Shown: positions 325 through 6,640 of the stretch, in pieces
How the letters are laid out: every line of letters begins with the position of its first letter
How positions within the stretch are numbered: the first letter of the stretch is position 1
NCBI GenBank assembly: GCA_025774615.1
Contig: JALGVQ010000102.1
Coordinates: 1-9,881, forward strand
Length of the DNA: 9,881 nt
Direction of reading: 5' to 3'
Origin: a bacterium
GTDB lineage: Bacteria; Blakebacterota; Blakebacteria; Blakebacterales; Blakebacteraceae
Program-made: the position numbers and the translations under genes
The notes under the pieces: generated by a model
What the model was told of the DNA's origin: nothing
The model's database searches: none
Seen by the model: the letters and a program-made list of their open reading frames with translations, nothing else

Positions 325-1314
325 TCAGAAATCCTCCAGGTAGTAGTTGGAGTAGACGGCACCGATCGGGTTATTCGCCAGTGACTTGTCTTTCACGAAT
401 ATCGTCGTGACTGGCGCATGGCTCTCTCTGGTGAAGATGCAATCAGCACCTACACAGAGACCGACGATGACATTGATGTCGGTATCAAGAGAGTTCAGGA
501 TCGCTGCCTGGCCAGAGGGGTTACAGGCTGTTGCAGCCAGATCGACGGATCCTCCCCCCGGTCCGGCATGCACCTGGGATGCGTCGAGGGTGATCCCCCC
601 CACTTTACAGCACACAGGGAATGCCTCGAAAAATCGCTGGAGCACCCCGGTGAGGATTGAAGCGGGTTGCAGCAAGTCGGTGCAGTAAGCCACGCCCAGG
701 CGACGGTAGCCCATATCGAGGCAGAAGTAGACGAGTTCGGCCAGGCGACAGAGTTTACGTTCACTCTCGCAGGCCACATCGATCGCTGATTCCAGAATAT
801 CCTGAGTCCATGCGGGCGGGACACACTCTTCAATGATAGTTGCCAGTGAACAAGCCTCTCCCCGGAGGCATTTTCGATCCACACACTCCAGACAGTTGAT
901 CTGACTTTCCGCCGGTCCGTTGCCTGTCTGGTCGGATGCAGGCGGGGTCATCACATCGCTGTCATCAGAACTCTCATCGAATCCCTCATCTTCGACGAGG
1001 CCGAATCCCGGATGGATACGGTCTTGTCTCAATGCGTCGATGATCCGGTCTGTGGTGCCTGTGACGTTATCTATGACATCTATCTCCAGGACCTGGACAG
1101 ATTCCCGGGTGGATGGACTGATGCCTCCGCATACCAGCGTGTCAACTCGTTGATCTGCCAGGACCCGGGCAAGGTCTGCCCACGTGGTTCCTTCCAGCGG
1201 AACAACAGTCTGCTCCAGAATCCGCCTGCGATTGACCGACACCAGAAGCACCGAATCGGCAAAGGTGCACCGTGGGGCGACTCGATCAGAGAGTATGGGG
1301 ATTCCAAATCGCAT
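325..1314 (-). CDS. two-domain protein: NifX/NifB-type dinitrogenase cofactor domain fused to DUF1847 metal-binding domain
   Basis: A 329-residue cytoplasmic protein with no signal peptide or membrane segment. Residues 1-100 resemble the FeMo-cofactor-biosynthesis (NifX/NifY/NifB C-terminal) fold: start MRFGIPILSDRVAPR, then VDTLVCGGISPSTRESVQ. A disordered acidic linker (about 104-140, with DESSDDSD) leads to a DUF1847-like domain at 141-329. That domain has C141, C144, C149 and C155 near its start, then CCKVGGI (C235, C236), CNPSGQA (C264), VGLCVGADC (C287, C292) and the end pattern APVTTIFVKDK...NNPIGAVYS. Such cysteines suggest metal or Fe-S cluster binding, but the biochemical role of DUF1847 is not known to me. 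ATG 1314 is preferred over the upstream GTG at 1338 because the NifX-like strand begins there and a GAGGA site precedes it, though its spacing is short. The gene is divergent from the redox operon, which suggests a regulatory or metal-trafficking link (inference). No nif genes are visible. Confidence 0.8.
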   Translation of the reverse strand: MRFGIPILSDRVAPRCTFADSVLLVSVNRRRILEQTVVPLEGTTWADLARVLADQRVDTLVCGGISPSTRESVQVLEIDVIDNVTGTTDRIIDALRQDRIHPGFGLVEDEGFDESSDDSDVMTPPASDQTGNGPAESQINCLECVDRKCLRGEACSLATIIEECVPPAWTQDILESAIDVACESERKLCRLAELVYFCLDMGYRRLGVAYCTDLLQPASILTGVLQRFFEAFPVCCKVGGITLDASQVHAGPGGGSVDLAATACNPSGQAAILNSLDTDINVIVGLCVGADCIFTRESHAPVTTIFVKDKSLANNPIGAVYSNYYLEDF

Positions 1315-1406
1315 GGCTTCCTCGTCGTCATTGGTCACGGGATAATCAAAGCAACTCCCATGCCGATAAGAAGAGATGGTGCTGTGCGATCGTAAAATCG
1401 GTGATC

Positions 1407-1680: not shown

Positions 1681-3132
1681 ATGGAAACCGCCACTGTATT
1701 ACCTGCTGCAATACCTGCCACCGAGATGACCGAGACCCCTTCGCGACGGGTATTCCCATACCACCTGCTGGAGCGCCCGGACGATGAACTGGTGGATCGT
1801 TTTCTTGAGGCGTTCGGCCGGGTCCTTGAGTTCACCGACTACAAACCGCTCCTTGATTCCTACCGAAGGTCAAACACGAAGTGCAACCGGTGTGCCGTGG
1901 CGTGTCCTGTCCTGCAGGCGTCAGGGGATCCGAAGGATATCCCCTGCTACCGGACCAACCTCCTGTTGGACATCTATGAGCGGTATTTCACTCTCGACGG
2001 ATGGTTCAAGTCACGACTCACGAACGCGTTCGAGCTGACCGAGGAGATCATCGATGAGATGGGGGATATCTTCTACCGGTGCACTGCCTGCCGTCGTTGC
2101 ACCAGGGTGTGTCCCCTCGGATTCGATCACGGACTCATCACGCGGCTTGGACGATATCTGCTCAGTCTGATCGGTATCGTTCCCAAGGCGCTTCAGGTCA
2201 GCGTTCAGGAGCAGCTCGAGGGAGAGACCCACAACACTTCGAAGGTGCCGAGGGCAGGATTGATTGACGTGCTGGAATTCCTCGCCGAGGAGATGGAGGA
2301 GATGCTGGGAGTGGAGCTGGAGTTTCCGACCGACAAGGTCGATCGGGACTATGTCTTCTTCTGCGCCGTCAGCGATTACCTCATGGAGCCCGATACCCTC
2401 ATGGGCAACGCTGCCGTGCTCTATGCTTCCGGTGACTGGGACAGGTGGACCATCGGGCTCTGCAACTACGACGGGATCAACTACGGTCTCTTCTACAGCG
2501 ACTGGCACCTTGAGAACATCATCAAGCAGCTGGTGTCAGAGGTGGACCGCCTGCGTGGCAGGAACATCCTCATCGGTGAATGCGGGCATGCGTCCCGGGC
2601 CGCTCACGACTTCGTCCCCACCTTCATGGGGCGCAAAGCCCCACCGGTACTGAACTTCATGGAATACACCCTCGACTGTATCAGGAAGGGTAGAATCACC
2701 CTCGACCCCAACGTCATCACTGAACGGGTCACCTACCACGATCCCTGCAATATCGCCCGCTCGGGCTGGATCATTGAGCAGCCCCGGGAGATCATACGGA
2801 GTTTCATAGGGGATTTCGTCGAGATGACACCAAAGGGATCGGACAATCTCTGCTGTGGAGGTGGGGGCGGTCTTGTATCGATCGACGAAATGCACGAATT
2901 CCGGATGGAGATCGCCGGAAAGATGAAGGCAGAGCAACTCCGGCAGACGGGAGCTGAGATCGTGGTGGCGCCCTGCGCCAACTGCAAGAAACAGCTCAAA
3001 GAACTCGTGGATTACTACGAACTACCCTGCCGTGTGATGGGGCTTCACGACCTGATACTTCAGGCAATCGAGATCCCCGGCGGTATCAGTCCCATGGAGC
3101 GTAAAGAACAGGCGGCTCTCTATGCCATCTGA
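1681..3132 (+). CDS. HdrD/DsrK/HmcF-like Fe-S oxidoreductase with CCG domain
   Basis: A 483-residue cytoplasmic Fe-S protein, the likely catalytic or terminal electron-exchange subunit of the complex encoded here. The first ferredoxin motif is C68-x2-C71-x3-C75-P; the second is C134-x2-C137-x2-C140-x3-C144-P. The CCG domain is C356-x34-C391-C392-G-x38-C432-x2-C435, close to the canonical form that binds a non-cubane [4Fe-4S] cluster in HdrB/HdrD. An earlier ECGHASRA segment (C301) is a remnant of the first CCG repeat, as is usual in the DsrK/HmcF/TmcB branch. There is no signal peptide or membrane segment. The first ferredoxin motif lacks its first cysteine (N65); C89 could substitute. ATG 1681 is chosen because AAGGA lies seven bases upstream; a TTG at 1624 would add 19 unlikely residues. 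It is the first gene of a four-gene operon. Relatives exchange electrons with thiol/disulfide partners such as DsrC or heterodisulfide; no such partner is encoded in the window. The exact subfamily is uncertain. Confidence 0.88.
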   Translation: METATVLPAAIPATEMTETPSRRVFPYHLLERPDDELVDRFLEAFGRVLEFTDYKPLLDSYRRSNTKCNRCAVACPVLQASGDPKDIPCYRTNLLLDIYERYFTLDGWFKSRLTNAFELTEEIIDEMGDIFYRCTACRRCTRVCPLGFDHGLITRLGRYLLSLIGIVPKALQVSVQEQLEGETHNTSKVPRAGLIDVLEFLAEEMEEMLGVELEFPTDKVDRDYVFFCAVSDYLMEPDTLMGNAAVLYASGDWDRWTIGLCNYDGINYGLFYSDWHLENIIKQLVSEVDRLRGRNILIGECGHASRAAHDFVPTFMGRKAPPVLNFMEYTLDCIRKGRITLDPNVITERVTYHDPCNIARSGWIIEQPREIIRSFIGDFVEMTPKGSDNLCCGGGGGLVSIDEMHEFRMEIAGKMKAEQLRQTGAEIVVAPCANCKKQLKELVDYYELPCRVMGLHDLILQAIEIPGGISPMERKEQAALYAI

Positions 3133-3153
3133 GGAGAGGTCAGGGGATACGTG

Positions 3154-3852
3154 ATGGAAGCATGGCTCGACTTCGCGAGAGGACCCCTCTTCGCATTCAC
3201 ATTCGGTATCATGCTGGCCGGATTGTGTCGCCAGGTGGCTCTTCAGATCTACTTCCTCTCGGTGAATAAGGGTCGGCGTCTGAAGGAGGTTCCCTGGATG
3301 ACCATGGTCAGGGATTCGCTGAGCTGGGTGATACCGATTCGCCACATCGAACCGGGGACAAAGATCTTCTCGATAGCGTCTTTCCTGATGCATATCGGAC
3401 TGATCATCGTGCCCCTCTTTCTACTCGATCATGTAGTCAGATGGGAACGCTTCCTGGGTCTGAACCTGCCTGCCATAGGCAAAGGTGTCGCGGATATCCT
3501 GACACTGTTGACCATCGCGTGCAGTCTGCTCCTGCTTGCATACCGGACCTTCCGGGCTCGCCACCGCATGGTGAGCGGGCCGATGGATTATTTCCTCCTG
3601 ATGCTGCTCCTGCTGCCCTTCGTGTCCGGGTATCTCGCCGCGCATCCCGCGATCAATCCGGCCCCCTGGGATGTGATGATGTTGACCCACATCCTGAGCG
3701 CCGAGGCGCTCTTCATTATGGTGCCAGCCTCCAAGCTGGCACATGTCGTGCTCTTCTTCTTCGATCGGATCTCGGCGGTGCACTGGCAGCTCCGTCCCGG
3801 GGCCGGGGACAAGGTGGCCGAAGCGCTGTTCGGTGAGGAGGCGAAGATCTGA
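3154..3852 (+). CDS. NarI/DsrM/HmcE-like membrane cytochrome b subunit
   Basis: A 232-residue integral membrane protein with about five hydrophobic segments (roughly 8-34, 71-92, 112-130, 144-163 and 176-203), the fold of the nitrate reductase gamma superfamily. These proteins carry b hemes and exchange electrons with (mena)quinone. H179 and H197 in the last helix are 18 residues apart, the spacing I recall for the NarI ligands in that helix. H80 in helix 2 is a plausible partner. The second helix-2 histidine expected about ten residues earlier is not evident (K70), so possibly only one b heme is bound; H64 and H93 lie at helix ends. The start is ATG 3154 or the adjoining GTG 3151, both served by AGGGG at 3142-3146. 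It follows the CCG protein by about 20 bases. The HdrD-like/NarI-like pair is the same module as DsrK-DsrM, TmcB-TmcC and HmcF-HmcE, which supports a membrane anchor linking the quinone pool to the CCG protein. Confidence 0.88.
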   Translation: MEAWLDFARGPLFAFTFGIMLAGLCRQVALQIYFLSVNKGRRLKEVPWMTMVRDSLSWVIPIRHIEPGTKIFSIASFLMHIGLIIVPLFLLDHVVRWERFLGLNLPAIGKGVADILTLLTIACSLLLLAYRTFRARHRMVSGPMDYFLLMLLLLPFVSGYLAAHPAINPAPWDVMMLTHILSAEALFIMVPASKLAHVVLFFFDRISAVHWQLRPGAGDKVAEALFGEEAKI

Positions 3853-4700
3853 TGAAAGGGATCCTGGTAGATGTCACAAAATGCTCGGGATGCGAGCGAT
3901 GCGTAGCCGCCTGCATCACTGAGAACGACTCCGATCCGGTCAGGGCTCACATGGACCGGGTGCTCACGAAGGACGGCCTGTCGGAAAACCGCCTTCTCAG
4001 CGTGCTGAGTGTGGATGATGGACGATTCGCCCGGAAGAGCTGTATGCACTGTCTGGAACCGAGTTGTGTCTCGGCCTGTCTTGTGGGAGGGATCACGAAG
4101 ACCCCTGAAGGACCTGTCATCTACGACCCGGACAAGTGCATCGGATGCCGGTACTGCATGCTGGCGTGCCCCTTCACCATTCCCCGATACGAGTGGCAGG
4201 AAACGACCCCCTTCATGAGGAAGTGCGAGATGTGTTTCGAGAGGGTGAAAGACGGGCTGGATCCGGCGTGTGTCGAGGCCTGCCCTCATGGAGCCCTGTT
4301 ATTCGGGGAGAGGGATGATCTGCTCCGCGTGGCATATAGTCGCATCGCTTCAGGCAATGACGTGTACCTGCCACGGGTGTGGGGTGAGAACGAGTTCGGA
4401 GGCACCTCGGTTCTCTACATCTCCGATGTTGATTTGAGCCCTATCGGTTGGCCGGAACCTGATGTGGAATCGATTCCCTCGATGACGGAGCCGCTCATTA
4501 CCAAAACACCGATCATCGGGATGAGCGTAGCGAGCAGTCTGCTGGGAGTGAACTGGATCATCCGGCGCAGGATGAAGCTTCAGAACGAAATCGCTGGTTC
4601 AGGTGAAACCACAATATCAACTGAAGCCACAAGTCCAGCTGAAACCGCTGGATCAGTTGGACCAGACAGGAGTGACCAGAAGGGGGGTGAGGGAGCATGA
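3852..4700 (+). CDS. HybA/HmcB/DsrO-like ferredoxin subunit with four [4Fe-4S] clusters and a C-terminal hydrophobic segment
   Basis: A 282-residue electron-transfer protein with four cysteine groups, enough for four [4Fe-4S] clusters: C11/C14/C17/C21, C64/C67/C72/C76, C96/C99/C102/C106-P and C125/C128/C140/C144-P. This is the HybA/PhsB/NrfC layout of subunits that dock onto an NrfD-type membrane protein, which is exactly the next gene. Residues about 216-237 form a moderately hydrophobic segment followed by RRRMK, a possible membrane anchor. The tail (about 245-282) is low complexity, with loosely repeated T/E/A/S residues. There is no Tat or Sec signal: the first cluster motif begins at residue 11. 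HybA and DsrO relatives normally carry a Tat signal, so this subunit may be cytoplasmic. However, positive charges after the anchor would favour a cytoplasmic C-terminus, and that conflict is unresolved. GAGGAGG lies 10 bases before ATG 3852. The start overlaps the previous stop by one base and the stop overlaps the next start by four bases, implying translational coupling. Confidence 0.9.
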   Translation: MKGILVDVTKCSGCERCVAACITENDSDPVRAHMDRVLTKDGLSENRLLSVLSVDDGRFARKSCMHCLEPSCVSACLVGGITKTPEGPVIYDPDKCIGCRYCMLACPFTIPRYEWQETTPFMRKCEMCFERVKDGLDPACVEACPHGALLFGERDDLLRVAYSRIASGNDVYLPRVWGENEFGGTSVLYISDVDLSPIGWPEPDVESIPSMTEPLITKTPIIGMSVASSLLGVNWIIRRRMKLQNEIAGSGETTISTEATSPAETAGSVGPDRSDQKGGEGA

Positions 4701-6640
4701 TGCGCCGGACCCGCACTCTGAAGGATATCCTGTGGGCGTTAGCCATGGCCGGACTGGTGGCGGGAATGTTCCGGCTCTGGTTCGGACTCGGGGCGACGAC
4801 CAATCTTACTGATGCCGTGCCGTGGGGACTCTGGAAGATTCTCAACATGATTGCCGGAGTAGCCATCTCGACCAGTGGCTTCACGATCGGCTTCCTGGTC
4901 TATGTCCTTAAACTGGAACGGTTCCGTCCCCTGATGAAACCGGCCATCCTGCTGGCCTTTCTGGGGTACGGATGCTCATGTCTGGCGCTGCTGTTCGATA
5001 TCGGTCTCCCGTTCCGTTTCTGGCACCCGTTCTTGATGTGGAACGAGCATTCGTTCCTTTTCGAAGTGTTCTGGTGCGTGATCCTCTACTTCACGGTCAC
5101 CGCTATCGAACTGGGCCCCACAATATTTGAAAAACTGCGAATCGAGCGGGTAGCGGAGTATCTGCACAGCATTGCGTTCGGTGTCGTGGTCGTGGGCATA
5201 TCGCTCTCCTCACTACATCACTCCTCGCTCGGATCACTTTTTCTGGTGACACCACAGCGGCTCCACCCGCTGTGGTACTCCTCCCTGCTACCGCTGTTCT
5301 TCATTATCTCGGCTATGGGCGCGGGGATGATGTTCATCGTACTCATCAAGATCCTCTATGCCAGGCTGTACAATCGGGAGTCGGTATTCGGACCAAAGGG
5401 AGAAGAGACGATCTTCCTGGCACCTCTGTCTGAGAGGAAGGCCGGGAACGGAAATCATCGGTCTGTTGGCAGAGACATGCCCATGCTGATCGGTCTTGCT
5501 TCCATCGCTGTTTCCATCCTGGGTGTTTTCGGGATTCTTCAGATCATCGACCTGCTTGTCAGTGGATCATGGCGTGCTCTGATTGCAGGTACCTGGGAGA
5601 GCTGGCTCTTCGGCCTCGAGATGATACTCCTGGCAGGTCTCCCCTCTTTCCTGGTCTGGAATCCCCGGACCCGACGCTCCCCGACCGCCCTGGGTATGGC
5701 AGCGTTCTCGGCCTGTTCAGGGCTGATGCTCAACCGGCTGGATGTCGGTATCTTCGGTTATTTCAGGAATGCCGGAGCGTTCTATTTCCCCTCTCTGGCC
5801 GAGTGGGCACTCTCCATCGGAGTCATTGCGGCAGCCGGACTGGCATTCCTCTTCTTCGTTGAGAACTTCCCCATCTTCGATGAGGAGTGGAGAAACCGGC
5901 GGAAAGACATGGGGGTATTCAGAGCCTCTTTCGACTCACTCTCCCGTGTCTGGAATACGGCCCTGAGCAGTGGCTTGGAGCGGACGACAGTGATTGCGGT
6001 GCTCGTGATCCCGTTGGCATGGGGCATTATGTATCCGATGTATTCGCGGGCAGATGGCATTGAGGCGATAGAACCGGCTGTCGGACTCGATATCACCCGG
6101 ACTGAACTCTGTATTGATGGTAACAAGACAGGTGTTACTACCAACTTCCCCCATGCCGATCATCGGGAGAGGCTGGGCGGGGAATCCTCATGTCGAAGTT
6201 GCCACCATATGTCACTCCCCGGAGATGAGACGACGGCCTGTTTCCGCTGTCATAGACAGATGGTGCAGTCGACACTCATATTCGATCATACTGGACATAC
6301 CCGGGCAGTCGCTGAAAGCGAGCAACTCAAGGGGATCCATCCGTCGAATCACTCCTGCGCTGTATGCCACCATGAGGGTGAAGCGAAATCAGCCGAGAGC
6401 TCCAAACCGTGTCTCGATTGTCACAAGGAGGACACAGCATGGGCGGAACGGTCCGACGGGGAGGATGATCTCGCGTATGCCGTGAGTTACATGGAAGCCA
6501 TGCACAATAACTGTATCCCGTGCCACCGGGAAAAAGCGGAAGAAGTGGACCGGAAGACTCTGGGTGACTGCTCCACATGCCACCGGTCACTTGTTGCCCG
6601 GCAGATCGTGTCAGAGACACTCGTTCCGGATGATCATTAG
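4697..6640 (+). CDS. NrfD/HybB-type quinone-interacting membrane protein fused to a hexaheme cytochrome c domain
   Basis: A 647-residue two-part protein. Residues 1 to about 395 hold about ten hydrophobic segments and resemble NrfD/HybB/HmcC/DsrP subunits, which interact with quinone and bind a HybA-like ferredoxin, encoded immediately upstream. A further membrane helix (about 429-448) leads to a periplasmic domain with six CxxCH heme sites: C499, C515, C554, C572, C606 and C625 begin the motifs. Additional histidines (H486, H489, H504, H531, H534, H548, H552, H559, H603) are available as distal ligands. Motif spacing and the SYMEAMHNNCIPCH segment resemble class III multiheme cytochromes (cytochrome c3/HmcA type). 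HybB-family proteins are normally about 390-420 residues without hemes. The reading frame through the junction is continuous and the extra helix makes topological sense, so this looks like a real fusion rather than an assembly error. The start is ATG 4697 or 4700; an AGGGGGG run at 4681-4687 serves either. It is the last gene of the operon. Heme attachment needs a Ccm system encoded elsewhere. Confidence 0.9.
   Translation: MMRRTRTLKDILWALAMAGLVAGMFRLWFGLGATTNLTDAVPWGLWKILNMIAGVAISTSGFTIGFLVYVLKLERFRPLMKPAILLAFLGYGCSCLALLFDIGLPFRFWHPFLMWNEHSFLFEVFWCVILYFTVTAIELGPTIFEKLRIERVAEYLHSIAFGVVVVGISLSSLHHSSLGSLFLVTPQRLHPLWYSSLLPLFFIISAMGAGMMFIVLIKILYARLYNRESVFGPKGEETIFLAPLSERKAGNGNHRSVGRDMPMLIGLASIAVSILGVFGILQIIDLLVSGSWRALIAGTWESWLFGLEMILLAGLPSFLVWNPRTRRSPTALGMAAFSACSGLMLNRLDVGIFGYFRNAGAFYFPSLAEWALSIGVIAAAGLAFLFFVENFPIFDEEWRNRRKDMGVFRASFDSLSRVWNTALSSGLERTTVIAVLVIPLAWGIMYPMYSRADGIEAIEPAVGLDITRTELCIDGNKTGVTTNFPHADHRERLGGESSCRSCHHMSLPGDETTACFRCHRQMVQSTLIFDHTGHTRAVAESEQLKGIHPSNHSCAVCHHEGEAKSAESSKPCLDCHKEDTAWAERSDGEDDLAYAVSYMEAMHNNCIPCHREKAEEVDRKTLGDCSTCHRSLVARQIVSETLVPDDH

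Follow-up and report, generated by a model that had tools for sequence, protein, structure and literature searches.

The window considered here is the whole 9,881-nucleotide stretch of contig JALGVQ010000102.1, from a member of the Blakebacteraceae. It contains a gene at 4697-6640 whose product joins an HmcC/NrfD-type quinone-site membrane domain to a six-heme cytochrome c in a single chain. The gene is the last of a putative four-gene operon, and its product is made up as follows.

4697..6640, + strand: fused subunit of 647 amino acids, comprising an HmcC/NrfD domain, helix 11 and a hexaheme class III cytochrome c
4697..5887, + strand: ten-helix NrfD-like quinone-site domain with the ActC fold, residues 1-397 (HmcC model 233 bits; VIA-align Z 29-34)
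4835-4837, + strand: codon of Lys47, three residues before Asn50
4844..4846, + strand: codon of Asn50, which replaces the quinone-site Asp, a change of the window's clade
5972..6040, + strand: predicted membrane helix 11, taking the chain to the periplasm, residues 426-448 (AlphaFold2 and an apolar run)
6098..6586, + strand: hexaheme domain, residues 468-630

The chain is encoded without interruption in one open reading frame (ORF), the start of which shares ATGA with the stop of the preceding gene and has GAGGGAG immediately upstream. Both halves score above the curated Pfam cut-offs, NrfD (PF03916) with 32.7 bits against 25.8 over residues 36-225, and Cytochrom_CIII (PF02085) with 47.1 bits against 22.9, the best stretch being 529-629. 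The original prediction of an NrfD-type subunit and a six-heme cytochrome in one chain is thus borne out. The top NCBIfam model for the protein is HmcC (233 bits, 5.9e-69), although the equivalog cut-off of 550 is not reached, and HmcA is a weaker match to the C-terminal part. The six CxxCH sites from C499 to C625 are where they had been placed. It had also been stated that no separate cytochrome gene lies beside the NrfD-like gene, and among the listed ORFs of at least 60 amino acids the window indeed holds no multiheme cytochrome gene besides the fusion; the one other CxxCH stands alone, as a chance occurrence, in a 104-amino-acid ORF that runs off the window start.

As the source is a draft metagenome contig of 9.9 kb, the two genes might have been joined by an assembly error or a frameshift. 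However, the whole fused frame is found without any stop in a genome of the same genus (G001, 79% identity) and is intact in tens of other, independent genomes, and an artefact was therefore rejected as extremely improbable. Homologues that always split into two genes at this point had been named beforehand as a refutation of the fusion; the homologues of the fused clade stay unsplit.

The membrane part belongs to the NrfD/PsrC superfamily by its PF03916 score, which is above the gathering score, and by its NrfD fold. Structural comparison, which covers the membrane part and not the heme domain, gives VIA-align Z-scores of 29-34 to ActC overall and 17.9 to PsrC; residues 1-397 align to ActC of 6btm_C with a Z-score of 33.5 and a root-mean-square deviation of 3.1 over 362 residues. 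The AlphaFold2 model (58 homologues; predicted local distance difference test, pLDDT, 80; predicted template modelling score 0.74) contains 11 long helices. The eleventh spans 426-445, in agreement with the helix originally proposed at about 429-448, and gives the right parity. In the same model the heme domain is of medium confidence, and the linker 448-464 is disordered with pLDDT below 50. Across the 58 homologues the apolar run of helix 11 has a median of 18 residues, and the mean number of lysines and arginines per loop is 2.2-4.2 for loops expected inside and 0.4-1.2 for loops expected outside, through the loop before helix 11. The c hemes must be attached outside, on the periplasmic side. 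The 11 helices and the positive-inside pattern together support a topology with the N-terminus inside and the hemes in the periplasm after helix 11. Of the proposal that the hemes are periplasmic and adjacent to the quinone site, the side is thus upheld, and an electron-transfer distance to the quinone site is no more than possible, given the low pLDDT of the linker.

The 1:1 stoichiometry that the fusion had been said to fix is likewise no more than possible in the cell, since cleavage may occur after helix 11. The chain might be made as a fusion and then be cut there, giving a separate six-heme cytochrome like HmcA or QrcA. Helix 11 does have the orientation of a signal peptide and aligns weakly with that of HmcA, and in the window it is followed by Ser-Arg-Ala, a possible (-3,-1) site. 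Such processing is nevertheless judged quite improbable: an apolar run with a median of 18 residues is long for a signal peptide, AxA occurs near the end of helix 11 in 14 of the 58 homologues with no conserved site, and the single chain has been maintained over at least 11 phyla.

The heme domain is a class III multiheme cytochrome c, with PF02085 above its cut-off, CxxCH sites at C499, C515, C554, C572, C606 and C625, and one distal histidine for each heme (H486, H489, H504, H531, H534 and H603, kept in 44-48 of the 48 six-heme rows). A five-heme class of the same proteins has lost the third site (C554) and H531 as well, while the other five histidines remain. H531 is present in 47/48 six-heme rows versus 1/10 rows of the five-CxxCH class, and the lone carrier among the latter, L086, has a CxxxCH elsewhere and thereby six hemes. 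The common loss of the heme 3 site and H531 supports the assignment of this histidine as the probable ligand of heme 3.

Compared with the PDB, the family profile finds its nearest solved relatives among the 16-heme HmcA proteins (3e-19, 3e-17, 4e-14 and 1e-13), and it is in this comparison that helix 11 lines up weakly with the HmcA signal peptide. A phmmer search of the PDB with a single fused protein gave cytochrome c3 matches only. We infer that hmcC was fused to a truncated hmcA-like gene whose signal peptide became helix 11. That 16-heme HmcA proteins are the nearest relatives supports the earlier view that the fused domain takes the place of the cytochrome that is a subunit of its own in complexes of the Hmc type.

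The other genes of the operon, and a divergent neighbour, are these.

1681..3132, + strand: HmcF/DsrK-like cytoplasmic subunit with two 4Fe-4S and one CCG site
3151..3852, + strand: HmcE/TmcC-like (NarI-type) di-heme b membrane subunit with four conserved histidines
3852..4700, + strand: HmcB/HybA-like iron-sulfur subunit with four 4Fe-4S clusters and a C-terminal membrane tail, no Tat (twin-arginine translocation) signal
325..1338, - strand: DUF1847/nitrogenase-cofactor-domain protein

The HmcF-like gene probably starts at the ATG at 1681, as judged by comparison with homologues, while the ORF tool starts it at TTG 1624; a few bases are shared at each junction between the last three operon genes. 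The best NCBIfam models are HmcB for the iron-sulfur subunit (227 bits, cut-off 420), HmcF/DsrK (212/271 bits) and TmcC/HmcE (118/114 bits). Four of the parts expected of Hmc are thus encoded, namely an HmcC-type subunit, an HmcB with four clusters and a tail, an HmcE and an HmcF. The gene order in the six-heme class is nearly always HmcF-HmcE-HmcB-[HmcC-c6]. Among the 50 six-heme loci, the window included, HmcB is found within 200 bp upstream at 48, HmcE at 48 and HmcF at 43, and in the subset with at least 3.6 kb upstream (41 loci) the numbers are 40, 40 and 39. At none of the 50 loci does an upstream gene encode a protein with 14 or more hemes. The cofactor ligands are conserved, with four histidines in HmcE and eight cysteines plus the complete CCG set in HmcF; in the HmcB-like subunit all 16 cysteines are invariant among 51 homologues, and the membrane tail followed by RR is kept.

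No RRxFL-type motif precedes the first cluster of the HmcB-like subunit in the window or at any of the fused loci examined; the canonical HmcB of L120 carries the Tat signal RRHFLGLLG. For a signal-less iron-sulfur subunit of this kind elsewhere, export together with a hydrogenase that bears a Tat signal has been given as the explanation (PMC10924467). The six-heme operons show no signal-bearing partner for the HmcB-like subunit.

Several genes recur around the fused operons. Relatives of the DUF1847/nitrogenase-cofactor-domain protein, or a short form of it, occur at 15/50 six-heme loci, and a gene of the DUF1847 type lies upstream of HmcF in L054, L055, L059, L061, L078, L084, L090 and L109. 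PAS-domain sigma-54 activators are also common nearby, as are histidine kinases and response regulators. A conserved cysteine-rich motif, CYEVYKGRSERCENC, is present in PAS-domain histidine kinases that adjoin fused operons (L066:8490-10301 and similar), and these kinases are possibly redox or metal sensors.

The quinone site of the window protein differs from that of most relatives. Asn50 is found together with Lys47 and Phe120 in all eight members of the window's clade and in all nine of the five-heme sister class, whereas almost all the remaining proteins (fused, unfused, HmcC and HybB) carry Asp at 50, Ile or Val at 47, and Val, Pro or Ala at 120. Position 50 corresponds to HybB Asp58, by a constant offset of 8 through R89, Y99 and D109 of the Salmonella sequence, and to NhcC Asp68, by an offset that stays at 18 in the nine residues listed between Asp68 and Glu163, both included; by residue spacing, QrcD being absent from the genomes searched, it also corresponds to QrcD Asp70. 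The latter has been placed at the start of the proton path proposed for the menaquinone pocket (PMC6303296, PMC8076601). It is conceivable that the NrfD part of the window's clade has no quinone chemistry and serves as an ActF-like membrane anchor, or as an ion-conducting link among the hemes, the iron-sulfur subunit and HmcE. The substitution at 50 and the accompanying pocket changes at 47 and 120 would be in line with this, as would the reported importance of Asp58 of E. coli HybB for quinone coordination (PMC8076601). The loss of quinone chemistry is still considered unlikely, because Asp101, Ser119, Glu123, His174 and other pathway residues are retained and the conserved pocket serine, which is missing in ActF, is present here.

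The original prediction had left open how common the fusion is. A search through one genome per species, restricted by two peptide patterns, gave 80 loci, and besides the window 58 of these are fused, 49 with six hemes and nine with five. The hosts span at least 11 phyla (Gemmatimonadota, Acidobacteriota, Chloroflexota, Planctomycetota, Zixiibacteriota, Latescibacterota, Myxococcota, Poribacteria, Ignavibacteriota, Bacteroidota and SAR324, and one Proteobacterium). When whole phyla were sampled, counting matches that cover about positions 1-600 of a profile 615 positions long within a single open frame, full-length fused proteins were found in 13/247 Acidobacteriota, 2/121 Gemmatimonadota and 2/80 in the phylum of the Latescibacterota metagenome-assembled genome, each sample including the genome used as its centre. 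The fused architecture is accordingly widespread but scattered, and not rare in kind. A search of plasmids gave unfused HybB-like matches only. Both the window's genome and G001 have another, distant fused copy as well (G000:C25 and G001:C414), and a group A6 FeFe hydrogenase with a NuoF-like partner (L029:8684-12375) is found near the second, type-B fused operon of G001:C414. At L040 there are two CxxCH only and the cytochrome part is split between frames on a contig of 1.4x coverage; these frame breaks are probably sequencing errors.

Quick trees built on the NrfD part place the fused proteins on a single branch, which has 60 rows and a value of 100 in the Shimodaira-Hasegawa-like approximate likelihood ratio test (SH-aLRT), and when the longest branches are dropped the fused branch has 59 rows and a value of 99. 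The main fused family would hence go back to a single, old fusion, and several independent fusions inside it are unsupported. L089, L094 and L125 fall outside the main branch and look like further, separate fusions. L094:1970-3919 and L089:7959-9551 encode an NrfD domain, a helix and c7-like heme modules with six and three CxxCH, respectively. L125:3705-6920 (G048:C213) is an apparent triple fusion, a single chain of 1071 amino acids that comprises a Tat signal, an iron-sulfur domain, an NrfD domain and 11 CxxCH; its order of Tat signal, iron-sulfur domain, tail, NrfD domain, helix and hemes would follow from the same topology as that of the window protein. Acidobacteriota frames of about 1081-1171 amino acids, for example in G201, G214, G239 and G374, match the profile and are similar in length to L125.

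The five-heme sister class occurs in another setting. In L045 (3-9818), L088 and L043 it belongs to one gene run with RnfC/D, G, E, A and B; L041, L042 and L048 are five-heme Rnf-linked loci as well. These runs also encode an HmcA-like cytochrome with 16 hemes and an HmcB-like subunit that has no signal, and they are without HmcE and HmcF. Their RnfB is fused to a GltD/NfnB-like reductase, and in L045 the end of RnfC and RnfD share one frame. This suggests that the five-heme class links Rnf to cytochromes or quinone.

With a probability of roughly 0.7, the four-gene operon of the window would encode a compact Hmc-like transmembrane electron-transfer complex in which HmcA has been replaced by the fused domain. 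The fusion, its ancestry, the conservation of the operon, the cofactor ligands and the topology are read from sequence, and we infer the assembly of the four products, the electron route, the partners and the direction. The ten-helix HmcC part would offer a quinone pocket on the periplasmic side, helix 11 would take the chain out, and the six bis-histidine c hemes would act as a tethered wire that serves electron carriers of the periplasm. The clusters of the HmcB-like subunit are expected to link this wire with the quinone pocket, while the hemes b of HmcE would join the membrane to the cytoplasmic 4Fe-4S and CCG site of the HmcF/DsrK type. Cytochromes of the periplasm or menaquinone could in this way exchange electrons with a cytoplasmic thiol-disulfide couple of the DsrK/HmcF type, and Hmc-like electron exchange across the membrane is most likely the role of the complex.

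Organisms that carry Dsr proteins are the setting where Hmc is known. The genome of the window (82% complete) has DsrA, DsrP and QmoC above their equivalog cut-offs and a FeFe hydrogenase, and no match to a NiFe hydrogenase or a heme-copper oxidase was obtained in it at this completeness. In G000:C3 (L032) dsrA adjoins DsrP, and G000:C270 (L033) carries QmoC and HdrA-like genes followed by an NrfD-like gene; the organism is thus a probable sulfate or sulfite metaboliser.

Some observations weigh against an Hmc-like complex. All subunits of the window score below their Hmc equivalog cut-offs, the change of Asp to Asn in the window's clade means that its quinone chemistry may differ, and the periplasmic export route of an HmcB-like subunit without a Tat signal is unexplained. 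Most of the host phyla are not known to reduce sulfate, and one physiological role common to all hosts is not established.

A wider reading is that these proteins form an undescribed and widespread class, which would have the quinone pocket and the heme wire in one chain, an iron-sulfur subunit exported with neither a Tat signal nor a signal-bearing operon partner, and, in the window's clade and the five-heme sister class, an Asn/Lys pocket with a coupling unlike that of Qrc, HybB and Hmc; taken as a whole this is tentative and rather doubtful. A review from 2021 of NrfD-like subunits presents the cytochrome and the NrfD-like component as distinct subunits, and the words "fused" and "fusion" are absent from its main text (PMC8076601). 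No prior description of an NrfD-cytochrome fusion was found in the open-licence papers searched, and the fusion is apparently undescribed, absence from that literature being no proof. A natural one-chain version could fix both geometry and stoichiometry, and one polypeptide may allow electron transfer between c hemes and an NrfD quinone pocket, and its electrogenicity, to be tested. None of the fused systems seen has a Tat signal on its iron-sulfur partner, which runs against the usual export rule, and Asn in place of Asp at a residue reported to be functionally important in E. coli HybB offers a direct mutational test.

Among the known systems, DsrMKJOP shares with the window a DsrK-like CCG subunit, a di-heme b subunit, an iron-sulfur subunit and an NrfD-like subunit, but its DsrJ is a separate triheme protein, and the B and C subunits of the window are Hmc-like. 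The complex might still be a DsrMKJOP relative acting on DsrC, as the CCG subunit scores higher with DsrK (271 bits) than with HmcF (212 bits) and DsrA is found in the same organism. This is very unlikely, however, since the HmcB, HmcC and HmcE/TmcC models lie far above the models of the DsrO, DsrP and QmoC/DsrM type (DsrP gives 24 bits against a cut-off of 350), the window has no triheme DsrJ, and a DsrP and a DsrK are encoded elsewhere in the genome. Alternative complex III provides, in ActC, the closest solved fold for residues 1-397, and its ActA is a pentaheme c subunit. The identity is only about 15%, however, and the window has neither a fusion subunit of the ActB type nor a second NrfD-like subunit such as ActF. 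QrcABCD likewise combines a ten-helix QrcD with a hexaheme c subunit, QrcA, and is electrogenic (PMC6303296). In the window the cytochrome is fused, QrcD Asp70 is replaced by Asn50, there are extra HmcE- and HmcF-like parts, and no ORF for a molybdopterin-type QrcB subunit is found among the operon genes. Membership in DsrMKJOP, Qrc or alternative complex III was rejected or found unsupported on the basis of the model scores, the genome's own DsrP and DsrK, and the fold comparison. NhcABCD has an NrfD-like NhcC that runs at a constant offset of 18 to the window protein, but NhcA is separate and has nine hemes, and NhcC has Asp68 where the window has Asn50.

Desulfovibrio HmcABCDEF is like the window in that homologues of HmcF, HmcE, HmcB and HmcC are encoded together and in that the cytochrome domain is related to HmcA. 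It differs in that the window has the HmcA and HmcC parts in one chain with six hemes instead of 16, the gene order F-E-B-CA, and an HmcB-like subunit without a Tat signal. No HmcD is seen; the genes for E, B and the fusion overlap and leave no room for it between them, and no search for a small gene at another place was made. Because it has no separate HmcA, an HmcB without a Tat signal and sub-equivalog scores, the complex falls outside Hmc as defined, and it is Hmc-like.

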